Positions 2,554 through 59,176 of a stretch of DNA of 64,000 nucleotides are shown here, in pieces (positions within the stretch are counted from its first letter, which is position 1; each line of letters starts with the position of its first letter). The DNA comes from Motilibacter deserti. GTDB taxonomy: Bacteria > Actinomycetota > Actinomycetes > Motilibacterales > Motilibacteraceae. The stretch spans positions 714,933 to 778,932 of the forward strand of contig NZ_JAANNP010000001.1 in NCBI RefSeq assembly GCF_011250635.1, read 5' to 3'. The translations under genes and the position numbers were made by a program. Under the pieces are notes generated by a model, which saw nothing but the letters and a program-made list of their open reading frames with translations, ran no database searches and was not told the origin of the DNA.

Positions 2554-3051
2554 GTGAACGCCTTCGACGACGTGCTCGCGGCCAACACCGACTACCAGAA
2601 GACCTTCGTCGACCCGGGGCTGCCCGGTCGCGCGGCGAAGGGGCTCGCGGTCGTGACGTGCATGGACTCGCGCATCGACCCGCTCGGCATGCTCGGCCTC
2701 TCCCCCGGCGACGCCAAGATCCTGCGCACGGCCGGGGCGCGCGTCACCGACGACGTGCTGCGCAGCCTCGTGCTCGCGCACTACCTGCTCGGCGTCGACC
2801 GGGTCATGGTGCTCGCCCACACCGACTGCGGCATGGCGAAGGCGCGCGACGAGGACGTCCACGCGGCCGTCCAGCAGCAGGCCGGGATCGACAGCCGAAG
2901 CCTGGACTTCCGGACGATCTCGGACCAGGAGGCCACCCTGCGCCACGACGTGCAGCGGGTGCGCAGCTCGCCCTACCTGCCGAAGGGGATGCCCGTCGTC
3001 GGCGGGGTCTACGACGTACGCAGCGGCGCGGTGACGGTCACCGTCCCCTGA
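2554..3051 (+). CDS. beta-class carbonic anhydrase (small, Rv1284-like)
   Basis: This 165-residue protein interconverts CO2 and bicarbonate in the cytoplasm. All beta-class zinc-site residues are visible: CMDSR gives Cys36, Asp38 and Arg40, and HTDCGM gives His89 and Cys92. The short length and the YQKTF start resemble the small actinobacterial Cab type of M. tuberculosis Rv1284. I chose the GTG at 2554 because the reading frame upstream does not look coding and the family starts about here. It is divergent from the permease and convergent with the racemase, with only 7 bp between their stop codons. Confidence 0.9.
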   Translation: MNAFDDVLAANTDYQKTFVDPGLPGRAAKGLAVVTCMDSRIDPLGMLGLSPGDAKILRTAGARVTDDVLRSLVLAHYLLGVDRVMVLAHTDCGMAKARDEDVHAAVQQQAGIDSRSLDFRTISDQEATLRHDVQRVRSSPYLPKGMPVVGGVYDVRSGAVTVTVP

Positions 3052-49196: not shown

Positions 49197-50123
49197 ATGA
49201 TCTCAGCGATTGGCCGTGGCATCGCCGCCGGCGCCGCCGGCACCACCGTCCTCAACGCGGTGACCTACCTCGACATGGCCCTGCGCGGCCGGCCGGCGAG
49301 CCAGGCGCCCGACCAGCTCGTCGAGCGGCTCGCCGCGGACGTGGGCACCCAGGTCCCCGGCAGCGGCGAGACCGCCGACAACCGGCGTAGCGCGCTCGGC
49401 GCCCTCGCGGGGATCGCCACGGGTGTCAGCGTCGGCGTGGCCGCCAGCCTGGCCCGCACCGCGGGCGTGCGCGCCCCGGCCCCGCTCGGCGCGCTGCTGA
49501 CGGGGGCCGTCGCCATGGCGGCGAGCGACGTGCCGCTGGCTCTCACCGGGGTGAGCGACCCGCGCAGCTGGTCGGGAGCCGACTGGGCCTCGGACGTGGT
49601 GCCGCACCTCGCCTATGGCATCACCACCTCGGCGGCCCTGTCCGCGCTGGAGCCGCCGCTGCGTACCGCTCCCCCGGTGTTCGTGCGGGCCGCACTGCTG
49701 GGCATCGCCGCCGGTGGCCGGAGCGCGTCCGGGATCACCGCGCTCGCCGTCACGACCTCGCCGCGGCTCGTCCACGGCCCGCTCGCCGCCCTGTCGGGCC
49801 GGGCCGGCACGACCACGGCCCTGCTCGGCGCCGCCGGCGAGCTGATCATGGACAAACTGCCGACGACGCCGAGCCGGCTCCGGCCGGAGGTGCTGTTGGC
49901 CCGCATCGGCGCCGGTGGGCTCGCGGCCGCCGGGCTGGCGTCGCGCGAGCACGGCAGCCGCGCGCTCGCCCTCGTCGCCGGCGCCGCGGGCGCGGTCGCC
50001 GGCAGCTTCGCCGGGGCCAAGTGGCGCGGCTGGGCCGCCGGGCGGGTGCCGGACTGGCAGGCCGCGGTGGCCGAGGACCTCGTCACGTACGCCGTGGCGA
50101 CGTACGCGGCGCGCCGCCGCTGA
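49197..50123 (+). CDS. two-part membrane protein (DUF1440-like plus DUF4126-like)
   Basis: This 308-residue membrane protein appears to be a fusion of two hydrophobic domains. Residues 1-150 (GRGIAAGAAGTTVLNAVTYLDMALRGRPASQ, TADNRRSALGALAG) resemble DUF1440/YagU-like proteins. Residues about 160-308 (RAALLGIAAGGRSASGITALAV, GELIMDKLPTTPSRL, GAVAGSFAGAKWR) resemble DUF4126-type proteins. No catalytic motif is present and the role is unknown. It begins 30 bp after larC but has its own GGGGAGC ribosome site. Confidence 0.7.
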   Translation: MISAIGRGIAAGAAGTTVLNAVTYLDMALRGRPASQAPDQLVERLAADVGTQVPGSGETADNRRSALGALAGIATGVSVGVAASLARTAGVRAPAPLGALLTGAVAMAASDVPLALTGVSDPRSWSGADWASDVVPHLAYGITTSAALSALEPPLRTAPPVFVRAALLGIAAGGRSASGITALAVTTSPRLVHGPLAALSGRAGTTTALLGAAGELIMDKLPTTPSRLRPEVLLARIGAGGLAAAGLASREHGSRALALVAGAAGAVAGSFAGAKWRGWAAGRVPDWQAAVAEDLVTYAVATYAARRR

Positions 50124-50235
50124 CGCGTCCCGGCCGTCGGACGCCTGTCGCGGAGACCGCGGTACGTCCGCGCGGGTGAAGCGGCGCGGGGCGCGGAACC
50201 ACGACGGGCTCCGCCGCGTTCGACTGCGAAAGACC

Positions 50236-50254
50236 CGCGGGCACCGTGCCCGCG
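50236..50254 (+). other. hairpin upstream of the first CNNM leader peptide
   Basis: CGCGGGCA (50236-50243) pairs with TGCCCGCG (50247-50254) around CCG. It is 14 bases before the leader ATG, after the stop of the membrane protein gene. It may be a terminator for that gene or part of the structured leader of the CNNM operon. Confidence 0.55.
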
Positions 50255-50267
50255 AACCGGAAGGGCC

Positions 50268-50333
50268 ATGAGCAGCGACCACAGACCCAGGGCCGTGCAT
50301 CCCGACCCCGTTGAGGGGGTGCACGGCCGTTGA
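50268..50333 (+). CDS. 21-residue Pro/Asp/Glu-containing leader peptide of CNNM operon 1
   Basis: This small ORF starts at ATG 50268 after GGAAGGG and encodes 21 residues that include HRPRAV and HPDPVEG. Its TGA stop overlaps the CNNM start codon (TGATG at 50331-50335). Clusters of proline with acidic residues destabilise translating ribosomes when Mg2+ is low, which is how Salmonella MgtL (with its EPDP motif) controls mgtA. Codons 9-21 lie across the hairpin just before the transporter ATG, so leader translation would open or refold it. The Mg2+-sensing role is inferred, backed by a second leader of the same length before CNNM operon 2. Confidence 0.7.
   Translation: MSSDHRPRAVHPDPVEGVHGR
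50291..50328 (+). promoter_or_regulatory. start-site hairpin of CNNM operon 1
   Basis: GGCCGTGCA (50291-50299) pairs with TGCACGGCC (50320-50328), and CCCC/GGGG pairing inside extends it. It ends 4 bases before the transporter ATG and would block its ribosome site unless ribosomes translating the leader peptide melt it. Confidence 0.7.
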
Positions 50334-51778
50334 TGGAAGTCCTGACCCTGCTGCTCGGCGTCCTGGTCGTCCTCCTGATCACCGTCGCGACGGGCTATTT
50401 CGTCGCGCAGGAGTTCGCCTACATGGCGGTCGACCGCTCCGGGCTGGCCGCGCGCGCCGAGGCCGGTGACGCCGCCGCCGCGCGGGCGCTGGCCGTCACC
50501 CGGCGGACGTCGTTCATGCTGTCGGGCGCGCAGCTCGGGATCACCGTCACCGGGCTGCTCGTCGGCTACGTCGCCGAGCCCCTCATCGGCGAGTCGCTCG
50601 GCGCGCTGCTCGGCGGTGTCGCGGTCCCCACGGGGCTGAGCGTCGCGATCGGCGCGGTCGTCGCGCTGCTCTTCTCCACCGTCGTGCAGATGCTCTTCGG
50701 TGAGCTGTTCCCGAAGAACCTCGCGATCGCCCGCCCGGAGGTCGTCGCGCGCCGGCTCGCGGCCTCGACCGTGCTGTTCCTGCGTGTCCTCGGCTGGCTC
50801 ATCTGGGTCTTCGACCAGGCCGCGAACCTGCTGCTGCGAGCCCTGCGGATCGAGCCCGTGCACGACGTCGAGCACGCCGCCACCGCACGCGACCTCGAGC
50901 ACATCGTCGAGGAGTCGCGCGAGAGCGGGGACCTGCCGGCCGAGCTGTCCATGCTGCTCGACCGCATCCTCGACTTCCCCGAGCGGGACGTGGCGCACGC
51001 GATGATCCCGCGGCCCCGCGTCGGCACGGTGGACGACACCGTCACGATCGGCGGGCTCCGCGAGCTGATGGCGCACGGCCACTCGCGCTATCCCGTGCTC
51101 GCCGAAGGCACGGAGGACGTCGTCGGGGTGGTGCACCTGGCCGACCTGCTGGCCTCCGCCGCGCCCGACGACGCTCCGGTGACCACGATCGCCCGCCCGA
51201 GCCTGTTCGTGTCTGCCTACACGCCGCTGCCCGAGGCGCTGCGCCAGCTCACCGGGACCACGAACCAGCTGGCCTGCGTGGTCGACGAGTACGGCGGGTT
51301 CGCCGGCGTGCTCACGGTCGAGGACCTCGCCGAGGAGCTCGTCGGCGAGATCACCGACGAGCACGACGAGGAGCGCCCCGAGTACGTCCCGGTCGAGGGC
51401 GACGGCGTCTGGGAGATGCCCGGCGACGTCCACGTCGACGAGGTCGAGCGGGCGCTCGGCGTCGACCTGCCCCGCGGCGGCTACGAGACCGTCGCCGGCC
51501 TGGTGATCGCGGCGCACGGCGCGCTGCCGACGCCCGGCACCCGGGTAGTGCTGGCGCTGCCCGAGGACCCGGCCGACCTGCTGAGCGATGACGAGCCCGA
51601 GCCGCGCCTGCTCTGCGTCGAGGTGCTCGACGTGGCCCGCCACGTCCCGGCACGCGTCCGGCTCACGCTGCCCGACCTGGATCCCGACTCCACCGGCGAC
51701 CCGGTCGCCGAGGACGACACCGGCGTCACGAACCACACCGTCGCCACACCCACCACTTCCGAGAAGGGCCTGCGTTGA
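50333..51778 (+). CDS. CNNM/CorC-type transporter, operon 1 first gene
   Basis: This 481-residue hemolysin-C/CNNM family protein has the DUF21 transmembrane domain (about 1-195: FVAQEFAYMAVDRSGL, SFMLSGAQLGITVTGLLVGYVAEPLIG, LFGELFPKNLAIARPE), a CBS pair (about 215-345) and a C-terminal CorC_HlyC domain (about 360-450, DVHVDEVERALGVDLP). CNNM proteins move Mg2+, often exporting it with Na+. ATG 50333 overlaps the leader-peptide stop. A TTG at 50330 is in frame but less likely. No Shine-Dalgarno is present, so translation probably depends on the leader. Confidence 0.92.
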   Translation: MEVLTLLLGVLVVLLITVATGYFVAQEFAYMAVDRSGLAARAEAGDAAAARALAVTRRTSFMLSGAQLGITVTGLLVGYVAEPLIGESLGALLGGVAVPTGLSVAIGAVVALLFSTVVQMLFGELFPKNLAIARPEVVARRLAASTVLFLRVLGWLIWVFDQAANLLLRALRIEPVHDVEHAATARDLEHIVEESRESGDLPAELSMLLDRILDFPERDVAHAMIPRPRVGTVDDTVTIGGLRELMAHGHSRYPVLAEGTEDVVGVVHLADLLASAAPDDAPVTTIARPSLFVSAYTPLPEALRQLTGTTNQLACVVDEYGGFAGVLTVEDLAEELVGEITDEHDEERPEYVPVEGDGVWEMPGDVHVDEVERALGVDLPRGGYETVAGLVIAAHGALPTPGTRVVLALPEDPADLLSDDEPEPRLLCVEVLDVARHVPARVRLTLPDLDPDSTGDPVAEDDTGVTNHTVATPTTSEKGLR

Positions 51779-52791
51779 GCGACAACCCCTGGGTCGTCGT
51801 CCCCGCGACCGGCGCGATCGTCGCCGCCAGCGCGTTCTTCGTCGCCGTCGAGTTCGCGGCCCTCGCCGCCAAGCGCCACCGGCTCGAGGACGCCGCGCCC
51901 GCCAGCCGGTCGGCCCGCGCCGCGCTGCGCAGCTCCTCGGAGCTGACGCTGCTGCTGGCCGGGTCGCAGCTCGGCATCACCGCCGCCACCCTGGCCCTCG
52001 GCGCGATCAGCAAGCCTGCCGTCCACCACTGGCTGACCCCGCTGTTCGAGGACGGCGGGCTGCCGGAGGTGGCGGCAGACGTCGCCGGCTTCGTGCTGGC
52101 CCTGCTCGTCGTGACCTTCCTGCACCTGGTCGTGGGCGAGATGACCCCCAAGTCGTGGGCCATCGCGCACCCCGAGCGCTCGGCGACGCTGCTCGCGCTG
52201 CCGATGCGCGCGTTTCTGTGGGCCTTCCGGCCGCTGCTGCGCGCGCTGAACGAGATGGCGAACGCCCTGGTCCGGCGGGTCGGGGTCGAGCCCGCCAACG
52301 AGGTCGCCGTGGGGCACAGCCCCGACGCGCTGCGCCACCTCGTGGAGCACTCGGCCAACGTCGGCGCGCTGGACGCCCGCTTCTCCGCGCAGCTGTCGGA
52401 GGCGCTGGAGATGGAGCGGATGACCGTACGCGAGCTGCTGCGCCCGACGGCGCCGCTCGCCGCCGTGGGCCCCGACGCGCCGGTCAGCGAGGTGCGCGAG
52501 GTGACCCGGCGTACCGGGCACCTGCGCGTCCTCGTCGGGGACGCCGACCGCATCACGCACGTCGTACACGTCCGCGACACCTTGACCGCCCCGGCCACGG
52601 CGCCGGCGGCCCAGTTCGCCCGCCCGGTGTTCACGCTCGACGCGGACACCACCGTGCACGCCGCCCTGCGCCAGATGCGCGAGACCCGCAACCACCTCGC
52701 CGTCGTCACCGCTGACGGCGCGCTGGCGGGCGTCATCACGCTGGCCGACGTGCTGCGCCGGCTGCTGCCTCAGGCAGCGGCTGCCGCCTGA
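51775..52791 (+). CDS. CNNM/CorC-type transporter paralogue, operon 1 second gene
   Basis: This 338-residue protein has the DUF21 membrane domain (SAFFVAVEFAALAAKRHRLE, LLLAGSQLGITAATLALGAISKPAV, VVGEMTPKSWAIAHPE) and a CBS pair but lacks the CorC_HlyC domain of its partner. The usual P-K-N after GE is P-K-S here. TTG 51775 overlaps the previous stop by 4 bp (TTGA). The full-length plus short pair arrangement is repeated in the second CNNM operon and suggests that the two proteins form a heterodimer. Confidence 0.9.
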   Translation: MSDNPWVVVPATGAIVAASAFFVAVEFAALAAKRHRLEDAAPASRSARAALRSSSELTLLLAGSQLGITAATLALGAISKPAVHHWLTPLFEDGGLPEVAADVAGFVLALLVVTFLHLVVGEMTPKSWAIAHPERSATLLALPMRAFLWAFRPLLRALNEMANALVRRVGVEPANEVAVGHSPDALRHLVEHSANVGALDARFSAQLSEALEMERMTVRELLRPTAPLAAVGPDAPVSEVREVTRRTGHLRVLVGDADRITHVVHVRDTLTAPATAPAAQFARPVFTLDADTTVHAALRQMRETRNHLAVVTADGALAGVITLADVLRRLLPQAAAAA

Positions 52792-52825
52792 CCCGCCGGG
52801 CACGTCCGGCCCACCGGACGGCGGG
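52792..52825 (+). terminator. hairpin after CNNM operon 1
   Basis: CCCGCC (52792-52797) pairs with GGCGGG (52820-52825), with GTCCGG/CCGGAC (52804-52809 and 52814-52819) pairing inside. It begins at the CNNM stop. A second perfect 8-bp hairpin, CCTCGCCC-ATCT-GGGCGAGG, follows at 52870-52889. Together they should separate the CNNM operon from the next leader. Confidence 0.65.
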
Positions 52826-52951
52826 CGAGGACGCGGCGCGTGGGCGTCGCTCCGGGGGCACCGGCGGAGCCTCGCCCATCTGGGCGAGGTGCGGTGATCG
52901 CAGGGAATGCCCTACCCTGCCGTCCGGTTGGTTGCCTGAGGAGGTGGTCCT

Positions 52952-53035
52952 GTGCTGCAGATCGTCGTGCGTCGTCTGACGCAGCGCCGGCACGTCGACC
53001 TCCTGCGCACGTGCAGTGCGGCCTGTCGTCCCTGA
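52952..53035 (+). CDS. cysteine-type leader peptide of the SDF symporter
   Basis: This 27-residue ORF starts at GTG 52952 with a very strong GAGGAGG 7 bases upstream. It contains the RRHVDLLR motif followed by TCSAACRP. That pattern (RRHVDLxR, then Ser/Cys residues near the end) is the recurrent actinobacterial leader peptide found before sulfur and cysteine genes, where cysteine shortage stalls the ribosome and relieves attenuation. Here it lies 69 bp before the symporter start, implying control by cysteine supply. No other gene fits between. Confidence 0.8.
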   Translation: MLQIVVRRLTQRRHVDLLRTCSAACRP

Positions 53036-53104
53036 CGACCCTTCCGCCGCCCACCTGCTCGCAACCCGCTCCCGGCGCCGTCGTGCGCCCGAAAGGTCAT
53101 GCCC

Positions 53105-54478
53105 ATGCGCGCGACTCTGCGCCGCGTCCCCTTCTCCGCCCAGGTCCTGCTCGGCCTCGTGCTCGGCGTCGTCCTCGGCCTCGTCGCCCGGTCCATGGGC
53201 GAGGTCTCCGACGGCAGCCCCAACTGGCTCGCCAGCACGCTCGACACCGTCGGCGACCTGTTCGTCAGCCTGCTCCGCGCCGCCGTCGTCCCGCTCGTCC
53301 TGACCGCGGTCATCGCGAGCATCGCCAACCTGCGCGGGGTCGGGAACGCAGCCCGCCTCGCCGGCCAGACGCTGCTCTGGTTCGCGATCACCGCGTTCGC
53401 CGCCGTGCTCATCGGCATCGGCCTCGGCCTCCTGCTGCAGCCCGGCGACCACACCTCGGTCACGCGCGACAGCGCGCACAGCGTCAGCACCATGGGCGAC
53501 TGGTGGGCCTTCCTCACCGGCCTCGTCCCGGACAACGTCCTCGGCCTGGAGGCCGACACGTCGGTCACCGACGGGGTCGCCTCGACGAGCCTGTCCTTCA
53601 ACGTGCTGCAGGTCGTCGTCATCGCCGTCGCCCTCGGCATCGCCGCCCTCAAGGTCGGCGACGCCGCCGAGCCCTTCGTCAACCTCGTGCAGTCTGCGCT
53701 GCAGGTCGTGCAGAAGGTGCTGTGGTGGATCATCCGGCTCGCGCCCATCGGCAGCGCCGGCCTGATCGGCCACGCGGTCGCGGCGTACGGCTGGGACGCC
53801 CTCGGCTCGCTCGGCGTCTTCGCCGTCGCGGTCTACGTCGGCCTCGCGCTCGTGCTCTTCGTCGTCTACCCGGTGGTCCTCAAGGCCAACGGGCTCTCGA
53901 TCAAGCAGTTCTTCACCGGCGTGTGGCCGGCCACCTCGCTCGCCTTCGTCTCGCGCTCGTCGCTCGGCACCCTGCCCGTCACCCAGCAGGTGACCGAGCG
54001 CAACCTCGGCGTCCCGCGGGCGTACGCCTCCTTCGCCGTGCCGCTCGGCGCCACCACCAAGATGGACGGCTGCGCCGCGATCTACCCGGCGCTCTCGGCG
54101 ATCTTCGTCGCGCAGTTCTTCGGCGTCTCGCTCGGCATCACGGACTACCTGCTGATCGTGCTCGTCTCCGTCGTCGGCTCCGCGGCCACGGCCGGCACCA
54201 CCGGCGCCACGGTCATGACCACGCTCACGCTGTCCACGCTGGGCCTGCCGCTCGAGGGCGTCGGCCTGCTGCTGGCGATCGACCCGATCCTCGACATGGG
54301 CCGCACCGCGCTCAACGTCACCGGCCAGGCGCTCGTCCCGGCCATCGTGGCCAAGCGCGAGGGCATCCTCGACAAGGCGGTCTACGACGCGCCCCGCGGC
54401 AGCGACGGCTTCGCCCTCCCCGTCGACGGCACCCCGGTCGAGGTGCCGGAGCGGGCGGCGGTCCCCGTCCCCGCCTGA
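53105..54478 (+). CDS. SDF (DAACS) family sodium/proton symporter, probably cystine or dicarboxylate
   Basis: This 457-residue transporter shows the DAACS signatures: SRSSLGTLPVT (serine-rich reentrant loop 1), GATTKMDGCA (NMDG-like Na+ site, here KMDG), and DPILDMGRTALNVTGQ (substrate-binding TM8). Dicarboxylate, glutamate and cystine carriers (DctA, GltP, TcyP) share this fold. The cysteine-type leader peptide upstream points to L-cystine uptake. ATG 53105 is preferred because AAAGG stands 8 bases before it; an ATG at 53099 is too close. A strong hairpin ends the gene. Confidence 0.92.
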   Translation: MRATLRRVPFSAQVLLGLVLGVVLGLVARSMGEVSDGSPNWLASTLDTVGDLFVSLLRAAVVPLVLTAVIASIANLRGVGNAARLAGQTLLWFAITAFAAVLIGIGLGLLLQPGDHTSVTRDSAHSVSTMGDWWAFLTGLVPDNVLGLEADTSVTDGVASTSLSFNVLQVVVIAVALGIAALKVGDAAEPFVNLVQSALQVVQKVLWWIIRLAPIGSAGLIGHAVAAYGWDALGSLGVFAVAVYVGLALVLFVVYPVVLKANGLSIKQFFTGVWPATSLAFVSRSSLGTLPVTQQVTERNLGVPRAYASFAVPLGATTKMDGCAAIYPALSAIFVAQFFGVSLGITDYLLIVLVSVVGSAATAGTTGATVMTTLTLSTLGLPLEGVGLLLAIDPILDMGRTALNVTGQALVPAIVAKREGILDKAVYDAPRGSDGFALPVDGTPVEVPERAAVPVPA

Positions 54479-54523
54479 CGGCCCCGGCCGCGCGCTGGAG
54501 CCGCACCTCAGGACCGCACGTCA

Positions 54524-54558
54524 GAACGGCCCGGACAGCGTCGCTGTCCGGGCCGTTC
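54524..54558. terminator. 16-bp perfect bidirectional terminator hairpin
   Basis: GAACGGCCCGGACAGC (54524-54539) pairs perfectly with 54543-54558 around a 3-base loop. It lies between the stops of the convergent SDF and CNNM genes and can end transcripts from both. Confidence 0.92.
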
Positions 54559-54571
54559 CACGTCGGGGCGC

Positions 54572-55618
54572 CTAGCGGCGCAGCTTCTGCGCCTCGTCGC
54601 GGATCTCGCCCACCAGCTCCTCGATCACGTCCTCGAGCGCGACGACGCCGACGAGGCCCCCGTCCGCACCGTGCACGCGGGCCAGGTGCGAGCCCGAGCG
54701 CTGCATCGCGGTGAGGACCTGGCGCAGCGGGTCGGTCTCGCGGACGGCCGGCAACGGGCGTACGGCCTCCGGGCGCAGCGCGGCGGCGCGCCGGGCGGGC
54801 TCCACCTCCAGCACGTCCTTGACGTGGACGTAGCCGCTGAAGCCGCCCGCACCGTCGCGGACGGGGAACCGGGAGTAGCCCGTGCGCGCCGACAGCTCCT
54901 CGACCTGGGCGGGCGTCGCGCCGGCGTCGATCACGGTCAGCGCGGCGGTCGGCAGCAGCACCGACCGGGCACCGCGCTCCTCGAAGCTGAGCGCGCCCTT
55001 GATCAGGCGCTCCTCGTCCTCCTCGAGCAGCCCCTCACGCCGGGACTCCTCCACCAGGCCGGCGACCTCGTCCCGGGTGAAGGCGCTGGTCACCTCGTTC
55101 TTCGGCTGGATGCGCACGGCGCGCAGCGTGCCGTTGGCGAGCGCGTTGAGCGCCACGATCACCGGGTGCAGGGCCCGCACGACCAGCATCAGTGCCGGTC
55201 CGAGCAGCAGCGCGGCGCGGTCCGGCCCGACGAGCGCGAGGTTCTTCGGCACCATCTCGCCGAGCACGATGTGCAGGAAGGCGACGATCGAGAGCGCGAT
55301 GACGAACGCGATCGGGTGCAGGAGGGACTCGGGCACGTGGACGTGCTCGAGCGGCACCTCGATGTAGTGCGCGACCGCCGGCTCGCCGAGCGAGCCGAGC
55401 CCGAGCGAGCAGACCGTGACGCCGAGCTGGGCGCCGGCCAGCATGAGGGAGATCTCCTCCATGGCCCGCAGGGTGGTGCGGGCGGCGCGCGACCCCGCCT
55501 CGGCGCGCGGCTCGATCGCCGAGCGGCGCGCGCCGACGAGCGCGAACTCCGCACCGACGAAGAACGCGTTGCCCAGCAGCAGGGCGACCGCGATCGCGAT
55601 CGCGAGCTCGCCGCTCAC
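54572..55618 (-). CDS. CNNM/CorC-type transporter, operon 2 second gene
   Basis: This 348-residue protein has a DUF21 domain (NAFFVGAEFALVGARRSAIE, LMLAGAQLGVTVCSLGLGSLGEPAV, IVLGEMVPKNLALVGPD) and a CBS pair ending in VVALEDVIEELVGEIRDE; it lacks a CorC_HlyC domain. GTG 55618 overlaps the stop of the upstream CNNM gene. It parallels the short partner in operon 1, but here the P-K-N motif is intact. It probably works with the longer partner in Mg2+ or other divalent cation homeostasis. Confidence 0.92.
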   Translation of the reverse strand: MSGELAIAIAVALLLGNAFFVGAEFALVGARRSAIEPRAEAGSRAARTTLRAMEEISLMLAGAQLGVTVCSLGLGSLGEPAVAHYIEVPLEHVHVPESLLHPIAFVIALSIVAFLHIVLGEMVPKNLALVGPDRAALLLGPALMLVVRALHPVIVALNALANGTLRAVRIQPKNEVTSAFTRDEVAGLVEESRREGLLEEDEERLIKGALSFEERGARSVLLPTAALTVIDAGATPAQVEELSARTGYSRFPVRDGAGGFSGYVHVKDVLEVEPARRAAALRPEAVRPLPAVRETDPLRQVLTAMQRSGSHLARVHGADGGLVGVVALEDVIEELVGEIRDEAQKLRR

Positions 55619-57015
55619 CGTGCGCCTCCGCCGTCCGCGGCCCCGCCGGGACGGGCGTCCGGCCCGTCGCCCGCCGGCGGCTCCGGCGGCGCTCCGGCGA
55701 GCACGAGCTCCACCCGGTCGACCCGAAGCCCGTCCATGGCGACGACGCGCAGCGTCACCTGCTCGTGCCCGAGGCCGCCGCTGACCGGTGCCTCGATCTC
55801 GACCGCGTCGCCCACGGCGGGCACGCGGCCGAGCTCGGCGCTGATCAGCCCGGCGATCGTCTCGTAGTCCTCGTCCTGCGGCAGGTCCACGCCGACGTGG
55901 CGGGACGCCTCGTCCGGACGCAGCTGGCCCGAGAGCGACCAGGTGCCGTCGGGAAGCTGGCGCACCGACGCGCGCCGCTCGTCGTGCTCGTCGATGACGT
56001 CCCCCACGAGCTCCTCGATGAGGTCCTCGAGCGTGACGATGCCCGCCACCCCGCCGAACTCGTCGATCGCGATCGCGGCCTGCAGCCCCTGCTTGAGGAT
56101 GTCCAGCAGCGGGTCCAGCTCCAACGTGTCCGGGACGAGCACGGGGTCGACCATGACCGACTCGACCTGCACCCGCGCCCGCCGCTCGTGCGGCACGGCC
56201 AGGGCGTGCTTCACGTGGACGATGCCGATGACGTCGTCCGCGACGCCCTGCACGATCGGGAAGCGGGACCGTCCGGTCTCCTTCACCGCGGCGACGACCT
56301 CGGCGAGGGTCGCGTCGGCGGGCAGGGTGTGCATCTGCACGCGCGGGGTCATCACGTCGCGCGCCCGCCGCTCGCCGAAGGCGAAGCTCTGCTGGAGCAG
56401 GACCGCGGTCTCGGCCTCGAGCGTGCCCTGCTCGGCCGAGCGCCGGACGAGCGAGACGAGCTCCTGGGGCGAGCGGGCGGAGGCGAGCTCCTCCTGGGCC
56501 TCCACGCCGAAGCGGTGCAGCAGCGCGTTGGCCGTGCCGTTGAGCAGCCGGATCGCCGGTCCGGTCACCCGGGTCGACAGCCGGGAGAACCCCTGCACCG
56601 ACTTCGCGGTGGCCAGCGGGCGTGCGATGGCGAGGTTCTTGGGGACCAGCTCGCCGAACACCATGGTCAGGACGGTGGCGAGCACGAGCGCGAGCGAGAC
56701 GGACACGGTCCGCGCCGCCCGCTCGGAGCTGCCCGCAGCCTCGATCAGCGGCCGGACGAGCTCGGCGATCGCCGGCTCGGAGAGGTAGCCGATGAGCAGG
56801 TTGGTGACCGTGATGCCCACCTGAGCGCCGGACAGCTGCGTCGAGAGCGAGCGCAGCCCGGCGAGCACCCCCTGGGCGCCGCGGTCGCCGGCCTCGGCGG
56901 CCCGCTCGACGCTCGGGCGGTCGACGGTGAGCAGGGAGAACTCGGCCGCGACGTAGGCCCCGCACGCGACCACCAGCACCAGTGCCAGGGCGAGCGAGAC
57001 CAGGGCGACCGTCAT
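55615..57015 (-). CDS. CNNM/CorC-type transporter, operon 2 first gene
   Basis: This 466-residue full-length CNNM protein has a DUF21 membrane domain (AEFSLLTVDRPSVE, STQLSGAQVGITVTNLLIGYLSEPAI, FGELVPKNLAIARPL), a CBS pair (about 205-340) and a CorC_HlyC domain (about 350-440). A Pro/Gly/Asp-rich tail ends the protein. ATG 57015 overlaps the leader-peptide stop (ATGA) and has a hairpin instead of a ribosome site, so leader translation probably controls initiation. Order and domain make-up match operon 1. Confidence 0.93.
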   Translation of the reverse strand: MTVALVSLALALVLVVACGAYVAAEFSLLTVDRPSVERAAEAGDRGAQGVLAGLRSLSTQLSGAQVGITVTNLLIGYLSEPAIAELVRPLIEAAGSSERAARTVSVSLALVLATVLTMVFGELVPKNLAIARPLATAKSVQGFSRLSTRVTGPAIRLLNGTANALLHRFGVEAQEELASARSPQELVSLVRRSAEQGTLEAETAVLLQQSFAFGERRARDVMTPRVQMHTLPADATLAEVVAAVKETGRSRFPIVQGVADDVIGIVHVKHALAVPHERRARVQVESVMVDPVLVPDTLELDPLLDILKQGLQAAIAIDEFGGVAGIVTLEDLIEELVGDVIDEHDERRASVRQLPDGTWSLSGQLRPDEASRHVGVDLPQDEDYETIAGLISAELGRVPAVGDAVEIEAPVSGGLGHEQVTLRVVAMDGLRVDRVELVLAGAPPEPPAGDGPDARPGGAADGGGAR

Positions 57016-57077
57016 ATGGCGCCGGACCGGGGCGGCGCCAAGGGTCTGGAGGGGGGTTCGTCAGGTGCGCAGCTCAC
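57012..57077 (-). CDS. 21-residue Pro-rich acidic leader peptide of CNNM operon 2
   Basis: On the minus strand GTG 57077, preceded by AGGATGG, opens a 21-codon ORF with the sequence elements APDEPPSRP and LAPPRSG. Seven of 21 residues are proline or follow an acidic residue pair, and the stop overlaps the CNNM start (ATGA). Length, composition and stop/start overlap mirror the leader of operon 1 although the sequences are not similar. Pro and Asp/Glu clusters can make ribosomes fall off at low Mg2+, as known for MgtL. This is an inferred Mg2+-responsive leader. Confidence 0.7.
   Translation of the reverse strand: MSCAPDEPPSRPLAPPRSGAI
57018..57039 (-). promoter_or_regulatory. start-site hairpin of CNNM operon 2
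   Basis: GGCGCCG (57018-57024) and CGGCGCC (57033-57039) pair around 8 bases. In the transcript it ends 2 bases before the CNNM start codon and lies entirely inside the leader ORF, so ribosomes on the leader would melt it. Confidence 0.65.
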
Positions 57078-57245
57078 CGCACCATCCTGCCAAGCCGTCG
57101 GCCCGCCAAACGCGGCCGGGGCCGGGCTGTGGACAGCGCGGGCGGCCGTCCCCACCGGTCGGCGAAGTGGGACATTCCCCCACGGGCGGGTGACGATGGG
57201 GTGACTGCGGCCCCGGCCGGGCGCGGCGTACCGGAGACTGGGGGC

Positions 57246-58253
57246 ATGCTCCGCGCTCCACGCCTGCACCCTCGCGCCCGTGCCCTCCCCGTCGTGCTGG
57301 CCGCGGCCGTCGCCCTCGTCGGCTCCGTGGCCCTGCCGTCGTCGACCGCCACGGCCGCTCCCGCCGGCTGCCCGACCGCGACCGTGACGGTGGCGGACGG
57401 GCCACAGCTGAAGAAGGCGCTGAAGGCCGCCAGGGCCGGGACGACCATCGCCCTGGCCAACGGGACCTACGCCGGCCCGTTCACCCTCGAGCGGTCCGGC
57501 CGCGCGGGCAAGCCGGTCCGGCTGTGCGGCGGGCGCGGCGCGGTGCTGCAGGGCAAGGGCATCAAGGGCTACACCCTGCACCTCGAGGGGGTCCACCACG
57601 TCGAGGTCCGCGGCCTCACCATCCGCGGCGGGCTGAAGGGCCTGGTCGCCGACCGGACGAGCTCCTCGCTTTTCAAAGGCCTCCTGATCGAGCGCACCGG
57701 CCAGGAGGCGCTGCACCTGCGCACCTTCAGCTCGCGCAACACGGTCACGGGCAACACGATCCGCAAGACCGGCCTCAAGGATCCGAAGTTCGGCGAAGGC
57801 ATCTACATCGGCTCTGCGGAGAGCAACTGGGGCCGCTACACCGGCGGCAAGCCCGACCGCAGCGACTACAACGTCGTGTCCGGCAACACGATCAGCGCGA
57901 CCACGGCCGAGAACGTCGACATCAAGGAAGGCACGACCGGCGGCAGGCTCGTGGGCAACCGCTTCGATGCCACGGGCATGTCCAAGAACCCGAAGGACGC
58001 CGACTCGTGGGTCGACGTCAAGGGCAACGGCTGGGTCATCAGCGGCAACGTCGGCAGGGGCGCGAAGCGGGACGGCTTCCAGACCCACGTCATCCTGCCC
58101 GGCTGGGGCAAGGACAACGTGTTCACGGCCAACAAGGCCACGGTCGTCGGCTCCGGCTACGCCTTCCGCCTCGACACCGACGAGCCCAACACCCTCCGCT
58201 GCGACAACACGGTCTCCGGCGGCGCAGAGCTGTCCAACGTCGCGTGCTCCTGA
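57246..58253 (+). CDS. secreted right-handed beta-helix protein (pectate-lyase-like fold)
   Basis: This 335-residue protein has a Sec signal peptide (MLRAP, then ARALPVVLAAAVALVGSVALPSS, cleavage near ATAA about 38). The mature part shows parallel beta-helix repeats typical of PbH1 and polysaccharide lyase-like proteins: LQGKGIKGYTLHLEGVHHVEVRGLTIRGG, NTVTGNTIRKTGLKD, NVVSGNTISATTAENVDIKEG, NVFTANKATVVGSGYAFR. It probably binds or cleaves an extracellular polysaccharide. Catalytic residues cannot be assigned with confidence. ATG 57246 is the first start before the signal peptide. Confidence 0.83.
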   Translation: MLRAPRLHPRARALPVVLAAAVALVGSVALPSSTATAAPAGCPTATVTVADGPQLKKALKAARAGTTIALANGTYAGPFTLERSGRAGKPVRLCGGRGAVLQGKGIKGYTLHLEGVHHVEVRGLTIRGGLKGLVADRTSSSLFKGLLIERTGQEALHLRTFSSRNTVTGNTIRKTGLKDPKFGEGIYIGSAESNWGRYTGGKPDRSDYNVVSGNTISATTAENVDIKEGTTGGRLVGNRFDATGMSKNPKDADSWVDVKGNGWVISGNVGRGAKRDGFQTHVILPGWGKDNVFTANKATVVGSGYAFRLDTDEPNTLRCDNTVSGGAELSNVACS

Positions 58254-58282
58254 CAGACTCGGCGCCCGGGAGGTCCCGCACG

Positions 58283-59176
58283 ATGCCCCGCCCCGCATTC
58301 CCCTGCCACCGGCGCACGCCGTACGCCGTGGCCGCGGCCCTCGCCCTGGCGCTGGCCGGCTGCGGCAGCGGCACCGACGACGCGGCCGAGCGGGCGTTCG
58401 CGTCCGCCGGGGTCGGGCCGACGACGGCGCCCACGCCCGTCGGCTCGCCGTCTCTGGAGACCGCCGTCCCCGCCACGCCCGAGGCCGGCCCCTCCGGCAC
58501 CGCGAAGCCCTCGGGAACCGCGAAGCCCTCCGGCCCGGCGAAGCCCTCGGGCACGGCCAAGCCCGCCAAGCCGTCGCGTACCCCGTCGAAGCCCTCGACC
58601 GCCGCGCAGTGGCTGTCGCGGGCGCGGACGGCCGTGCAGGCCGCCGGGTCCTACCAGGTCAAGGGCGACGGCTACGTCGGCAGCACCGGCTACTCGGTGA
58701 GCCTCAGCGTCGGGTGGGACCGGGCCCAGGGGTCGGTGACCGTCGACGGGCGCAAGACGAAGGTCGTGCGGGTCGGCGAGACGGTCTACCTCAAGCCCGA
58801 GCCGGAGTTCCTGCCCCTGCTCGACGTCGACGAGGCCAAGGCGCCGTCCCTGGAGAAGAAGTGGGTCAGCGCGACGTTGGGAGACGAGCGCCTGCCGTCC
58901 GTGTTCGCGCTGCTCGACCCGAGCGCCTCGCTGCGGGTGGAGTCTGCCCGGCTCGTGGGCGAGCAGGCTTACCGCGGCACGACGACCGTCGAGATCGCCG
59001 GCAGCGCCGATTCGCCGCGGCTGCTCGTCGCGAGCGAGGGCAAGCCGCTGCCGCAGGCGATCGCCCCCGCGGGCGGCGACGAGCCCATCCTCGTCTACAA
59101 CTACGGCACCAAGGGCGTGACCGCCGAGGCGCCCAAGGGCAGCAAGGTGGTGCGGCTCAGCTCGCTCACGGGCTAG
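58283..59176 (+). CDS. lipoprotein with LppX/LprG-like beta domain
   Basis: This 297-residue protein has a lipoprotein signal with lipobox LAGCGSG (Cys27). A flexible linker of Thr/Pro and repeated PSGTAK units (about 55-110) follows. The C-terminal 180 residues (ARTAVQAAGSYQVKGDGYVG, VTVDGRKTKVVRVGETVYLKPEPEFLPLL, YRGTTTVEIAG) resemble the U-shaped antiparallel sheet of LppX/LprG/LolA-like proteins that bind lipids. It would sit on the outer face of the membrane. GGGAGG precedes ATG 58283. Confidence 0.78.
   Translation: MPRPAFPCHRRTPYAVAAALALALAGCGSGTDDAAERAFASAGVGPTTAPTPVGSPSLETAVPATPEAGPSGTAKPSGTAKPSGPAKPSGTAKPAKPSRTPSKPSTAAQWLSRARTAVQAAGSYQVKGDGYVGSTGYSVSLSVGWDRAQGSVTVDGRKTKVVRVGETVYLKPEPEFLPLLDVDEAKAPSLEKKWVSATLGDERLPSVFALLDPSASLRVESARLVGEQAYRGTTTVEIAGSADSPRLLVASEGKPLPQAIAPAGGDEPILVYNYGTKGVTAEAPKGSKVVRLSSLTG

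Follow-up and report, generated by a model that had tools for sequence, protein, structure and literature searches.

An unannotated leader ORF overlaps the start of CNNM transporter genes in Motilibacter deserti and in many other Actinobacteria

In a 64,000-nucleotide stretch of the Motilibacter deserti genome (contig NZ_JAANNP010000001.1, positions 714,933 to 778,932; hereafter, the window), a 21-codon open reading frame (ORF) on the minus strand ends inside the start codon of a gene for a CNNM-type transporter. This ORF is real and conserved, as seen in its position, length, overlap, and enclosed hairpin, in the conservation of its frame, and in a class-wide enrichment of such ORFs. The class of leaders to which it belongs is widespread before CNNM genes in Actinobacteria and apparently undescribed. 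We lean toward a reading in which the leader opens a CNNM mRNA that is probably leaderless, is translated, is coupled to the CNNM gene, and gates CNNM synthesis; both the translation and the coupling are deduced from the anatomy of the locus.

The leader of the minus-strand CNNM gene

The features at this locus are as follows.

57012..57077, minus strand: leader ORF (upstream ORF), GTG start, 21 codons and a TGA stop, encoding VSCAPDEPPSRPLAPPRSGAI; read from the sequence and from relatives
57017..57040, minus strand: 8-bp hairpin TGGCGCCG-CCCCGGTC-CGGCGCCA inside the leader, predicted by RNAfold
57084..57092, minus strand: extended -10-like element TGGCAGGAT, with CAGGAT at -12..-7 of the leader start
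55615..57015, minus strand: CNNM transporter, 466 amino acids (aa), with CNNM, two CBS, and CorC_HlyC domains (Pfam PF01595, 129.5 bits; PF00571; PF03471)
54572..55618, minus strand: second CNNM gene of the pair, with CNNM and CBS domains (PF01595, 142.6 bits), coupled to the first by a GTGA overlap

The TGA of the leader lies within the ATGA (57015-57012) that holds the ATG of the CNNM gene, giving an RTGA overlap, and this ATG is the 5'-most possible start of the gene, with no in-frame start further upstream. At 21 aa, the leader is inside the 5-50 aa range of coupled leaderless small ORFs. Near its N-terminus is the acidic and proline-rich stretch APDEPPSRP, of the kind found in leaders that act by intrinsic ribosome destabilisation (IRD), and it includes a [DE]PP motif in the form DEPPS. 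The enclosed hairpin (TGGCGCCG/CGGCGCCA, 57040-57017; -15.0 kcal/mol) ends 1 nt before the CNNM start, and inspection of the start at 57015 revealed no Shine-Dalgarno (SD) sequence there. Upstream of the leader, CAGGAT is accompanied by a TG and stands at the spacing expected for a leaderless mRNA, and this -10 geometry suggests that transcription probably starts at the leader itself. By its domains, the gene that follows is a putative Mg2+ transport gene, and its product is predicted to be an Mg2+ exporter. An earlier note on this DNA had described the 21-codon GTG ORF, its ATGA overlap with the CNNM start, and an enclosed hairpin, all of which a check of the sequence bore out, except that the hairpin has 8 bp rather than 7.

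Taken alone, the window leader is hardly more than chance would supply, and it is the comparison with relatives that decides. A same-genus genome (L037) has an ATG exactly where the window has its GTG and a 21-codon ORF encoding MSTPPDDPPSRRVAPSRSGAT; because of this identical position and equal length, we take GTG 57077 as the start. Ungapped identity between the two genomes is 66/80 over -80..-1 and falls to about one third further upstream, with the conserved block beginning at the -10-like element TTGGCAGGAT. The 8-bp hairpin is retained in this relative, with one additional closing pair. Within the family, the pattern cttggca(gg/cc)at appears at constant spacing in 3/4 other genomes (L037-L039). 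In the two of these other than L037, the element takes the form TTGGCACCAT, equally spaced from a leader ATG, and the stop of the ORF falls a little way into the CNNM gene (RTGCTGA overlap). In the fourth family genome (L050), TACCCT precedes the leader ATG by about 8 nt.

Overlapping leaders before CNNM genes across Actinobacteria

One rule was applied to all gene families in a survey of Actinobacteria, namely an ORF of 12-45 codons whose stop overlaps the start codon of the gene. Such an ORF is found at 115/138 non-redundant CNNM loci and at 12/15 loci of CorC-like CNNM genes, compared with 22/85 controls (CorA, 10/28; DctA, 7/27; TerC, 5/30); MgtE was tried as a further control family and gave too few matches. 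The overlap takes the form xTGA in 112/138 CNNM loci. When an evener sample of one or few loci per genome is used, leaders precede 62/77 CNNM genes, and several of the loci in this sample that count as having no leader by the rule do carry one, ending a few bases later. An initiation signal, either an SD or a -10 element at leaderless spacing, accompanies the leader at 57/138 CNNM and 12/15 CorC-like loci, compared with 5/85 controls. The earlier note had proposed that CNNM operons are preceded by a regulatory class absent from standard annotation and had staked this on overlapping ORFs being commoner there than before other genes; the comparison supports the class. Among the loci from outside Actinobacteria (L026, L030-L035), we found no convincing leader, and they are too few to support a conclusion.

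The single, CorC-like CNNM genes (L121-L135) have short leaders, with TANNNT exactly 12-13 bases upstream of the leader start in 8/15, and they appear from these features to be a third CNNM type with leaderless coupled leaders. In a Solirubrobacteraceae metagenome-assembled genome (L025), the CNNM match at 3001 is immediately preceded by the leader MTAALDDDDPPQRKGRARPSGAREAVTPWSGC, which overlaps the CNNM gene by about 15 bases and has in DDDDPP an extreme case of an acidic and proline-containing start. In a Frankia-like group (L041, L042, L024, L203-L212), the leader is MKDSDDAGCSSGRPTR, and an additional stem, CCGGATGTAGTTCCGG, lies in its middle part.

In one Streptomyces group, the leaders begin MDGSSCSTCAA. 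All 20/20 of these preserve the frame over seven different lengths, and the indels that fall between the hairpin arms likewise keep the reading frame. At the CNNM start, a five-pair helix is paired in 98.9% of cells and shows two double-sided compensatory pairs, compared with none when the helix is slid. Nucleotide conservation is strong around the leader start. Some 20 bases upstream of that ATG with which the leader begins, the Streptomyces group (L091-L260) also has an invariant GAGGAGTGA followed by CTCC, which could fold together and hide the SD of the leader itself, and an overlapping, out-of-frame GTG ORF in the same group terminates at the TAG in TGTAGT.

The second CNNM operon of the window

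A plus-strand operon in the window has its own leader.

50268..50333, plus strand: leader ORF, ATG start, 21 codons and a TGA stop, encoding MSSDHRPRAVHPDPVEGVHGR, with the SD GGAAGG upstream
50291..50328, plus strand: 13-bp hairpin within this leader, enclosing an SD-like GGGGGTG before the CNNM start
50333..51778, plus strand: CNNM transporter with CNNM, two CBS, and CorC_HlyC domains (Pfam PF01595, 122.6 bits)
51775..52791, plus strand: second CNNM gene of this operon (Pfam PF01595, 127.7 bits)

This leader meets its CNNM start through a TGATG overlap and is conserved in the same-genus genome (G001) as MSTDHRPWAAHPELAEAVRGR, with 68/80 ungapped identity and a U-A to C-G compensation in the 13-bp hairpin. 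Each of the two leaders is thus conserved inside its own CNNM clade, so that the suggestion in the earlier note that the leaders arose without descent is too strong. Their equal length of 21 codons is probably a coincidence, since the leaders that the survey accepted vary in length from 12 to 45 codons, which are the limits of the search. The two CNNM pairs (50268-57077) face each other, with a DctA-type symporter gene (53099-54478) between them, and the same-genus genome has the identical order and orientation (G001:C3 407795-414406).

Composition and codon use of the leaders

The earlier note attributed the leaders to selection on proline and acidic composition and proposed scoring their total Pro+Asp+Glu content; as worded, this is not supported, and it is local features near the leader start that stand out instead. 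Relative to the same DNA in frame +1, whole leaders have no excess of these residues (24.2% versus 25.7%). Of 59 cluster representatives, 37 have an acidic residue at positions 2-5 (p = 1.6e-10 against a null of 23.5%), compared with 9 and 10 in the other two frames; the loci are related by descent and the leader starts were picked by rule, so that this and our other p-values serve as guides only, a caution that counts against our reading. A [DE]PP motif is found near the leader start in 7/59 representatives, compared with a null of 1.7%.

A second local feature is the serine codon AGT, which occurs in frame in 23/47 clusters and in only 2 and 4 clusters in the other frames. AGT makes up 84/352 of the serine codons in leaders versus 41/1791 in CNNM genes. 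It is seen at about codons 6-11 of otherwise dissimilar leaders from GC-rich genomes (L091, L042, L058, L237). A role for AGT as a hairpin-loop motif was considered and rejected, as it lies in a predicted loop in 9/23 cases versus 36% of all codons, and no common RNA structure context was found for it.

Proposed mechanism and alternative explanations

In the mechanism that we propose, the CNNM start is weak and directly shielded by the hairpin. Because no ribosome-binding site is obvious at this start and the hairpin stands directly in front of it, most ribosomes would arrive there only after translating the whole leader, unwinding the hairpin, and initiating anew at the ATGA. How often the leader is translated to its end would then set the amount of CNNM protein, and anything that halts ribosomes within the leader would lower it. 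A further and more doubtful step, drawn by analogy with the enterobacterial leaders described below, is that the gate responds to Mg2+. When Mg2+ is low, IRD at the acidic and proline-rich start would make ribosomes drop off, leaving the hairpin closed and the exporter off, while at high Mg2+ the leader would be completed and the exporter made.

Two cautions attach to the window leader itself. Its frame is stop-free over 428 codons, and its length of 21 codons therefore depends on choosing GTG 57077. Moreover, ORFs of 15-30 codons that begin with RTG end at 60/567 RTGA sites in the window (10.6%). Other observations weigh against the proposed reading. Between the two same-genus genomes, the codon changes in this leader show no third-position excess. 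Whole-leader Pro+Asp+Glu content is not enriched relative to shuffles (24.9% versus 22.7%), and many leaders, such as MDGSSCSTCAA of Streptomyces, have one acidic residue and no nearby proline. Finally, the mean accessibility of the start region is the same for CNNM as for CorA (both 0.348) and is lower only than that of DctA (0.445).

The frequency of RTGA-closed frames in the window and the long open frame are what one would expect if the leader were a chance product, many ATGA starts in GC-rich DNA closing some upstream frame from which a reader had picked one. The enrichment over the 85 control genes, the exact positional conservation within the genus, and the frame-preserving length changes in Streptomyces make this explanation highly improbable. 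Only slightly less improbable is a structured RNA element, such as a riboswitch of a new type, that overlaps the ORF by accident. The hairpins with compensatory changes at the CNNM start and the strong nucleotide conservation around the Streptomyces leader start would fit such an element, but the indels between the hairpin arms preserve the frame, the hairpins differ between clades, and the AGT motif is in frame yet has no shared RNA context. A known RNA family was rejected, as Rfam scans of window positions 49800-58400 and of seven related loci gave no credible match even at E<=1 and no Mg2+ riboswitch family (M-box, mgtA leader).

The main rival is plain translational coupling with no sensing, in which the leader merely supplies ribosomes to a start without a binding site of its own. 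This explanation accounts for most of the anatomy, as the architecture by itself explains both the overlap and the opening of the hairpin, and mycobacteria in general have an excess of small ORFs that are coupled through RTGA on leaderless mRNAs, sometimes without peptide conservation (PMC4633059). However, CNNM genes show the association far more strongly than CorA, DctA, or TerC genes do, and plain coupling requires no constraint on the N-terminus, yet acidic residues at positions 2-5 and AGT are enriched. We regard plain coupling as a real but minority possibility.

Relation to known leaders and significance

Coupled leaderless architecture is already known from mycobacteria (PMC4633059) and Mg2+-linked leader peptides from enterobacteria; it is the association with CNNM that is apparently new. 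The mycobacterial "coupled" small ORFs (Shell et al. 2015, PMC4633059) share with the CNNM leaders the RTGA overlap and a length of 5-50 aa, and they start at the mRNA 5' end, as is predicted for the window leader, whereas they represent a general architecture, and the portions of that paper that we could consult contain no link to CNNM or Mg2+. We would place the CNNM leaders in this class on the basis of overlap and length, which agree, and of a leaderless start, which is predicted. Cysteine-responsive mycobacterial attenuators (Canestrari 2020, cited in PMC9094748) are similar in that a leaderless short ORF controls a downstream operon in cis, whereas they sense cysteine through Cys-rich codons and the CNNM leaders are not poly-Cys.

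Among the enterobacterial systems, the upstream ORF mgtQ before Salmonella mgtB has acidic codons 2 and 5 that gate a hairpin at the ribosome-binding site (PMC8092293). Like the window leader, it is a short ORF before an Mg2+ transporter gene (putative in the window), and its translation controls the hairpin, as that of the window leader would. Unlike the window leader, it has 8 codons and is intergenic, and its abortion raises an importer, whereas completion here would raise a putative exporter. In MgtL, the leader of mgtA in E. coli and Salmonella, ribosomes drop off on EPDP at low Mg2+ (PMC11282234), and it resembles the CNNM leaders in having a proline-containing, acidic N-terminus before an Mg2+ transport gene, while it differs in acting through Rho-dependent termination on an importer, with no stop/start overlap with its target described in the sections consulted. 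For the CNNM leaders, we do not claim membership among IRD leaders; the likeness, drawn by analogy, lies in the acidic and proline-rich start and in the target gene. A third case is Salmonella mgpA/yoaE, which encodes a CorC-domain Mg2+ protection protein, is induced by high Mg2+, and requires the overlapping leader YoaL for its translation (PMC12421838). YoaL resembles the CNNM leaders in overlapping and preceding a CorC-domain protein gene, and differs in that it belongs to one enterobacterial gene, for a protein with a TerC-type membrane domain, with its mechanism undefined in PMC12421838.

CNNM/CorC proteins have been linked to Mg2+ export. Taken together with the drop-off in mgtL, the hairpin gating by mgtQ, and the induction of mgpA by high Mg2+, the simplest joint reading is an exporter that would be off at low and on at high Mg2+. 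In the literature that we could search, which left out most subscription journals, we found no paper that names Rv1842c, none that joins CNNM/CorC with actinobacterial leaders, and no account of CNNM/CorC control in Actinobacteria.

As Mg2+ transporters, CNNM/CorC proteins are conserved, and the coupled leader that almost always precedes three types of CNNM gene, though absent from annotation, is a concrete place to look for their control in a phylum in which leaderless initiation is common. It is conceivable, though we think it on balance unlikely, that leader peptides govern several paralogous types of CNNM exporter in Actinobacteria by reading cytoplasmic Mg2+ through ribosome stability. 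Such a class, which we advance with the same reserve, would mirror mgtL and mgtQ on the side of export, and if the Mg2+ step is true, ribosome stability would serve as a sensor for Mg2+ export as well as import.
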